From NCBI GenBank assembly GCA_015485355.1, contig WFTQ01000095.1:1-33762 (forward strand): DNA of 33,762 nucleotides. Direction: 5' to 3'. Below the pieces are notes generated by a model. That model saw only the letters and a program-made list of their open reading frames with translations, had not been told where the DNA came from and ran no database searches. This stretch comes from a bacterium. Lineage in GTDB: Bacteria > Calditrichota > Calditrichia > RBG-13-44-9 > J042. Positions within the stretch are counted from its first letter, which is position 1. The number at the start of each line of letters is the position of its first letter. Shown here piece after piece: positions 24,011 to 31,900 of this stretch. The position numbers were made by a program, and so were the translations under genes.

Positions 24011-24015
24011 GTGGT

Positions 24016-24107
24016 ACTCCGTTGGGGGTGCTTTCTGCGAAAGCAGAAGGCTGAGATTATACCCCTCGAACCTGAACTGGGTAATGCCAGCGTAGGGAAA
24101 CGGAGTT
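24016..24107 (+). ncRNA. TPP (THI-box) riboswitch aptamer
   Basis: The conserved THI core is present in order: GGGGGTGC, a short P3 hairpin (TTTCTGCGAAAGCAGAA), GGCTGAGATTATACCCC, GAACCTGAACTGGGTAATGCCAGCGTAGGGAA. Stem P1 is closed by ACTCCGTT (24016-24023) with AACGGAGT (24099-24106). It binds thiamine pyrophosphate and should switch off the downstream genes when TPP is plentiful, through the terminator at 24143. An antiterminator can be drawn: GGGAAACGG (24095-24103) with CCGTTTTCC (24144-24152), stacked on AGTTCAAAAAG (24104-24114) with CTTTTTGGACT (24127-24137). Confidence 0.97.
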
Positions 24108-24142
24108 CAAAAAGATCGTGGTCTGCCTTTTTGGACTCTTAG

Positions 24143-31607: not shown

Positions 31608-31707
31608 CGTGCCGGTTTTGACGCCCGTCAAGAATCTCCCCCGACACAATGTTTCTAACCCCTTGTAAACAAATGGGATATAAAAATTAATTTCCCGGGA
31701 GCATCTC

Positions 31708-31723
31708 TGGCATAATTATTGTA
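31708..31723 (+). promoter_or_regulatory. Sigma-54-like site upstream of the tiny gene
   Basis: TGGCAT-N5-TTGTA resembles the -24/-12 consensus TGGCAC-N5-TTGCA, with T for C at the usually conserved -12 position. It is 42-81 nt before the two candidate start codons. No better sigma-70 pair was found here; the best is TTGTAA-17-ATTAAT further upstream. A 14-bp palindrome (TTGACG-CC-CGTCAA, 31618-31631) lies just after the OsmC terminator. Confidence 0.3.
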
Positions 31724-31803
31724 TTGTTTGACCGGGTGCACAGGGAAATCGGGTGAACGGAGGTATGTTTCGCCCACAGAATAATCAATCAGGAGGGAAC
31801 ACC

Positions 31804-31863
31804 ATGAAGTTGAAAATTAAAGTAAAAATGAAAATTAAACGGTATACCCACCAAAACGGTTAA
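31804..31863 (+). CDS. Tiny gene for a lysine/hydrophobic alternating peptide
   Basis: Nineteen codons, MKLKIKVKMKIKRYTHQNG. AGGAGGG with 6-nt spacing is an excellent ribosome-binding site, and a perfect intrinsic terminator begins five bases after the stop, so this is a self-contained transcription unit between two other terminated units. From residue 2 to 12 every second residue is lysine and the others are aliphatic or Met, which as a beta strand gives one fully cationic and one hydrophobic face. An in-frame ATG at 31765, right behind GGAGGT, would extend it to 32 residues with a Asn/Gln/Gly-rich leader. I recognise no family. It could be membrane-active, an RNA-binding peptide, a precursor peptide, or a by-product of a small regulatory RNA. 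Confidence 0.55.
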   Translation: MKLKIKVKMKIKRYTHQNG

Positions 31864-31868
31864 CGGGC

Positions 31869-31900
31869 AAGCCCCGCATCCCGGCGGGGCTTTATTTTTT
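31869..31900 (+). terminator. Intrinsic terminator of the tiny gene
   Basis: AAGCCCCGC pairs with GCGGGGCTT around ATCCCG, followed by TATTTTTT. It overlaps the end of the convergent minus-strand gene. Confidence 0.92.

Follow-up and report, generated by a model that had tools for sequence, protein, structure and literature searches.

Does a frame of only 19 codons in a genome from the sparsely studied phylum Calditrichota encode a peptide that the cell uses, and what could a chain of alternating lysines and hydrophobic residues do there? Genes of 14–20 codons are easily overlooked by gene finders. We examined this locus in the window, meaning the whole analyzed stretch of 33,762 nucleotides, and compared it with its relatives. 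Compared genomes and families are labeled with G- and f-numbers, the window's own genome being G000, in family f1. The core elements of the unit are the following:

31804–31863, plus strand: micro-gene MKLKIKVKMKIKRYTHQNG, including its TAA stop codon.
31791–31797, plus strand: Shine–Dalgarno sequence AGGAGGG, read directly, ending six bases 5′ of the ATG.
31869–31899, plus strand: intrinsic terminator, a 9-bp stem (31869–31892) and a T-run.

The first base of the terminator stem lies five bases past the micro-gene stop codon, and the sequence thus agrees with the initial annotation, which had described a 19-codon frame with an AGGAGGG site and a terminator at that distance. Its description of residues 2–12 of the 19-residue peptide as Lys alternating with Leu, Ile, Val, or Met is equally accurate; the pattern ATG-K-h-K-I-K-h-K has a single match in the entire 3.44 Mb source genome and none in the reversed control. 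The gene had also been called free-standing, and it is: osmC has its own hairpin and T-run on one side, and a convergent gene pair lies on the other. More precisely, the osmC side is an AhpC-TSA/OsmC gene pair, and the convergent pair comprises the gene for a small cysteine-containing protein and then the S30AE/HPF gene, hpf. The suggested proximity to hpf and osmC is seen in part of the window's own family (G000, G001, and, within contig limits, G003), with different neighbors in G002 and in the other families. Because the neighbors differ between families, we regard the micro-gene as its own unit. The 19-residue peptide gene of the source bacterium is real and appears to be independently controlled. 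Rfam gives no match at the micro-gene locus; elsewhere in the window, a TPP riboswitch (Rfam RF00059, 78.2 bits) is present at 24014–24115 on the plus strand.

Protein, profile, and pattern searches combined with locus-by-locus reading yielded 43 candidate loci, a few of them weak, in 29 of 40 Calditrichota genomes, and it is near certain that the gene family is real. The weaker members, which we include tentatively, are G015:C27, C396, and C345; G008:C95 and C104; and G006:C23. The conserved part is the N-terminal Lys/hydrophobic alternation of ~12 residues, starting from the ATG at 31804, and the C-terminal tail is variable. Most members in f1–f3 have 14–20 residues, as in MKLKIKVKMKIKRYTPPTA (G001), MKIKIKVKMKVKKSQGDN (G004), and MKLKIKVKAKIKKYTP (G007). 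Family f5 contains short forms (MKLKIKAKYKIKTR in G017) plus forms of 30–55 residues, and f6 contains long forms only, such as MKLKIKYKMKAKFFLHCQKPLKITVYGEESTPIQSSVRQPRAKAALAA. The loci sit at different places in the genomes, five of them in each of two related f2 species (G008 and G015). Each has its own Shine–Dalgarno sequence and usually a terminator, which in most short relatives is likewise 3′ of the open reading frame. A second group of short members (e.g., MKLKMKLKVKIKRAPAK) occurs at G008:C49, G015:C405, G006:C45, G012:C40, and G014:C279, and the terminators 3′ of this group are similar across genera (GGCTGCCG...CGGCAGCC). Several long forms in G022, G023, G035, G020, G034, G016, and G028 end in ALAA, IAA, KAA, LAS, or FAS. 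These C-termini resemble the end of the ssrA tag, and by this likeness long members might be ClpXP substrates.

Family members have no match in Pfam or among PDB sequences, and only chance-level matches in NCBIfam (0.011, far under the cut-off) and PHROGs (0.15). The statement that no described family shows this pattern is therefore upheld as far as Pfam, NCBIfam, and the PDB go. Judged by sequence, the peptide pattern resembles that of man-made membrane-active peptides and that of no known natural protein family.

Divergence among relatives argues for translation. The shared cores of five close pairs contain 25 differences, all synonymous and 0 non-synonymous (synonymous:non-synonymous, G000/G001 4:0; G004/G006 7:0; G017/G033 8:0; G022/G035 4:0; G008/G015 2:0). 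More distant pairs have additional conservative exchanges, which fall on the hydrophobic side. Across the family, the alternating positions are almost all Lys (248, against 3 Arg). Since both AAA (149) and AAG (99) are used for these lysines, it is the amino acid, not the codon, that is conserved. The hydrophobic positions are mainly Ile, Leu, Met, and Val, with Ala, Tyr, and Ser next; a near-fixed Lys beside a variable hydrophobic side fits the needs of an amphipathic strand. The initial annotation had set a conserved RNA structure without a conserved reading frame against a translated gene. The comparison came out for coding, as synonymous changes dominate and the mRNA is no more stably folded than its shuffles (z −0.46), which supports the free-standing, translated micro-gene that had been claimed.

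A longer product had also been considered, in which a second ATG would add a leader in the manner of a precursor peptide:

31765–31803, plus strand: in-frame upstream ATG plus 13 codons, rejected as a leader.

This ATG exists, is in frame with the micro-gene, and stands behind GGAGGT, and an upstream ATG is frequent among relatives. The 13-residue leader does not hold up, because its frame is not conserved in G001, G008, and G014. In G001 and at one G014 locus, the frame ends at a TGA overlapping the start codon (ATGA in G001). It meets a stop after six codons in G008 and is in frame in G015, though the two are close relatives. We rejected a RiPP precursor on account of this unconserved leader frame and the absence of a modifying enzyme among the neighbors found; the remark that no maturation enzyme adjoins the gene stands for the genes found here.

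Upstream of the gene is a conserved promoter-like element:

31707–31723, plus strand: putative σ54-type promoter CTGGCATAATTATTGTA (CTGGCAT-N5-TTGTA).

We infer that this element functions as a σ54-type promoter, with a predicted transcription start at ~31733. Counterparts are found in G001, G002, G003, G006, G012, and at one G014 locus, 92–113 nt upstream of the ATG. The spacing is enriched genome-wide: in five genomes (G000, G001, G002, G003, G017), TTGGCAY-Nx-TTGTA occurs 35 times at x = 5 and 7, 6, 2, and 1 times at x = 3, 4, 6, and 7, respectively, and the TTGCA variant at x = 5 is at background level (8) in the same genomes. RpoN is encoded in 37 of the 40 Calditrichota genomes, including G000. 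The element shares with σ54 promoters of Desulfovibrio (tGGcacg / tTGCt; PMC4641369) the GG at −24 and the fixed −24/−12 spacing, the position before genes, an upstream palindromic site, and an encoded RpoN. Unlike these promoters, which have TTGC, it has TTGTA at −12 and so lacks the GC of that element. The same would apply to most σ54-type promoters in Calditrichota, which appear to carry TTGTA, not TTGCA, at −12 (e.g., L182, L191, L208, L286).

Sites of this type in G000 and G001 are often ~50–140 nt upstream of genes, including those for Hsp20 paralogues, ClpB, a multihaem cytochrome, and a TonB-linked receptor. The sites before the Hsp20 and ClpB genes would link heat-shock chaperones with RpoN in Calditrichota, and the TTGTA element at these genes makes an unusual promoter specificity in the phylum directly testable. 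A 63-residue protein without a Pfam match (MFRVTENWIRILEFRDRKSKELKRQISFSEAVALWMSESM...) is likewise encoded behind a σ54-type promoter, at L297 (G000:C103) and L302 (G001:C38).

Two operator-like sites accompany the promoter:

31618–31631, no strand assigned: upstream palindrome and putative operator TTGACGCCCGTCAA (TTGAC-N4-GTCAA), 89 bp before the −24/−12 box.
31728–31741, no strand assigned: imperfect candidate for a second operator, TTGACCGGGTGCAC, close to where transcription is predicted to start and identical in G001.

A KTGAY-N4-RTCAM palindrome is located 87–90 bp before the −24 box in G000, G001, G002, G003, G006, and G012, and, counted from the ATG, at a corresponding distance in G008 and G015. 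In f5 and f6, it lies ~70–117 nt before the ATG, and several loci have it twice, 23 bp apart; no −24/−12 box was seen upstream of family members in f5 and f6. We shuffled the sequences clade by clade and scored GTGAY-N4-RTCA per clade and position. In each of three clades, 0 of 1000 shuffles reached the observed total in the relevant interval, P values that are optimistic because the motif was chosen after viewing the same sequences, a choice that does not explain the fixed distances. Farther and nearer intervals in f5/f6 were at background. The second operator-like site is weak alone (P 0.03, f1–f3 set).

A CRP site (TGTGA-N6-TCACA), considered as the first operator motif, was rejected as too loose, with few loci significant. 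The half-site of the palindrome resembles CRP/FNR family sites, which we take as a resemblance only; at that distance, the regulator could equally be an enhancer-binding protein. A perfect-palindrome search for the operator's regulon returned no coherent gene set. In G000 and G001, the sole other σ54-type promoter with a perfect operator at this distance (85 bp) is that of the TonB-linked receptor gene (L283, G000:C27; L290, G001:C23), which has the same perfect palindrome as the micro-gene. It is possible that the two genes are coregulated.

These features can be combined into a tentative mechanism. The σ54-type promoter, under a factor binding the KTGAY-N4-RTCAM palindrome, would give a ~165-nt transcript, and the 19-residue peptide translated from it would be used without a leader or processing. 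The first 12 residues would adopt an extended strand whose lysines face one way and whose Met, Leu, Ile, and Val face the other. Once the gene is on, this strand would rest against an anionic cellular surface; the inner membrane face is the most likely one, with nucleic acid or an acidic partner protein as alternative targets. We favor, at something short of an even chance, the reading that the gene supplies, under regulation and without processing, a cationic amphipathic peptide whose strand acts at the membrane or another anionic surface inside the cell. An intracellular effector is preferred because of the purifying selection, the absence of export and immunity genes, and the conserved control elements. 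With slightly more reserve, we suggest that the family may represent phylum-wide, gene-encoded Lys/hydrophobic strand peptides under σ54-type control that act inside the cell on membranes or polyanions, nature's equivalent of the designed [KL]n peptides.

Linear β-stranded antimicrobial peptides are uncommon in nature, and designed [KL]n and [IK]n peptides form strands on membranes, with KL peptides of 9–15 residues the most antibacterial and KV peptides inactive (reviewed in PMC8757834). The micro-gene peptide shares with the synthetic [KL]n, [IK]n, and [KV]n series the strict cationic/hydrophobic alternation over ~12 positions, in the length range of highest activity (PMC8757834). It differs in being a gene product with a variable tail and no known export, known from its sequence, whereas those peptides are designed and added externally. 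Strict alternation of this kind has come mostly from peptide design; a natural family that is conserved and regulated would reveal what evolution does with the pattern and how cells put up with a peptide that could disturb membranes. An AlphaFold2 prediction of a 48-residue relative, modeled with no membrane, gave a low-confidence helix over residues 2–15, not a strand, a result that tells neither for nor against the proposed strand.

Charge alone does not explain the strong preference for Lys, since a membrane or polyanion role of that kind would also admit Arg, which is almost never used. The preference may reflect a dedicated partner or the chemistry of lysine. Mainly for this reason, we keep as a serious rival a microprotein that would bind a specific protein by strand addition, as a regulator or subunit of a conserved machine, for instance the ribosome, a protease, or a chaperone. 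Such a partner is suggested by the nearly invariant Lys of the alternating positions, and the Hsp20 and ClpB genes behind σ54-type promoters in the same genome are consistent with it. On the other hand, there is no sequence relative in Pfam, NCBIfam, or the PDB, and a tight interface would not usually leave the hydrophobic face as free to vary as it is here. On balance, we consider a dedicated protein partner unlikely.

Leaderless bacteriocins are short cationic peptides without a leader, and the micro-gene peptide is likewise short, cationic, and leaderless. A released antibacterial peptide whose strand permeabilizes the membranes of competitors would need no leader, and both length and alternation match the designed [KL]n peptides, most active at 9–15 residues (PMC8757834). 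Very few Val-type peptides, however, are active (PMC8757834). The micro-gene peptide also differs from leaderless bacteriocins in being shorter and conserved phylum-wide, and no recurring transporter, immunity, modification, or maturation gene is found beside any of the 21 loci examined. Moreover, its core is under strong purifying selection throughout the phylum, whereas peptides directed against rivals usually diversify. Release against competitors is therefore improbable.

The type I toxins described so far are hydrophobic helices that span the membrane. Like Ibs and Ldr, the micro-gene is a very short open reading frame in an intergenic, self-terminated unit, with several copies in some genomes, and its long untranslated leader and membrane-active composition would also suit a peptide that acts on the producer's own membrane and is held down by an antisense RNA. 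Its product is no hydrophobic membrane-spanning helix, however: the core has Lys at every second position and is half lysine. In addition, the mRNA is not unusually structured, the sequence of the locus revealed no antisense RNA, and no sigma70-like promoter was found on either strand of the micro-gene region, with the proviso that Calditrichota promoters may differ. We rate a toxin of this type as slightly less probable still than a released peptide.

An attenuator leader peptide, with lysine codons controlling transcription of a following operon, would suit a tiny open reading frame rich in one codon family with a terminator immediately after it, but is rejected as highly improbable because the gene 3′ of the micro-gene is on the opposite strand (convergent) in the window and at most of the 21 loci, leaving no co-directional operon behind the terminator. 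The idea that the locus holds no protein gene is equally hard to credit, whether the frame is put down to chance, to a hexanucleotide repeat, or to a small RNA; pattern matches in other phyla are mostly repeated hexamers or frames lacking a Shine–Dalgarno sequence, but those in Calditrichota combine Shine–Dalgarno sequences and varied core codons with synonymous-only core divergence and RNA structure not above shuffles.

The comparison comes from a pattern scan over 84,980 species genomes (GTDB), which returned 67 matches, 10 in Calditrichota and 57 in other phyla. All 10 Calditrichota matches have a Shine–Dalgarno-like sequence and 5–7 different core codons. Such a sequence precedes only 6 of the 57 others, most of which consist of one or two repeated hexamers (AAAATG, AAAATC). 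We rejected these 57 as members, since they look like hexamer repeats or frames lacking a Shine–Dalgarno sequence. Two matches on viral contigs were also unconvincing, as one frame runs on upstream and the other begins a 170-residue protein. By sequence criteria, the family appears restricted to Calditrichota, having been found only there in these searches; divergent relatives in other phyla could be missed because the pattern demands I/L/M/V-type codons at most positions. The AAAATG/AAAATC repeats, reading (K-M/I)n, occur at L110, L123, and L150 (Bacteroidetes HyVt-532) and at L122, L137, and L147 (Saprospiraceae). Some are present on both strands as inverted pairs and mimic the micro-gene in pattern searches.
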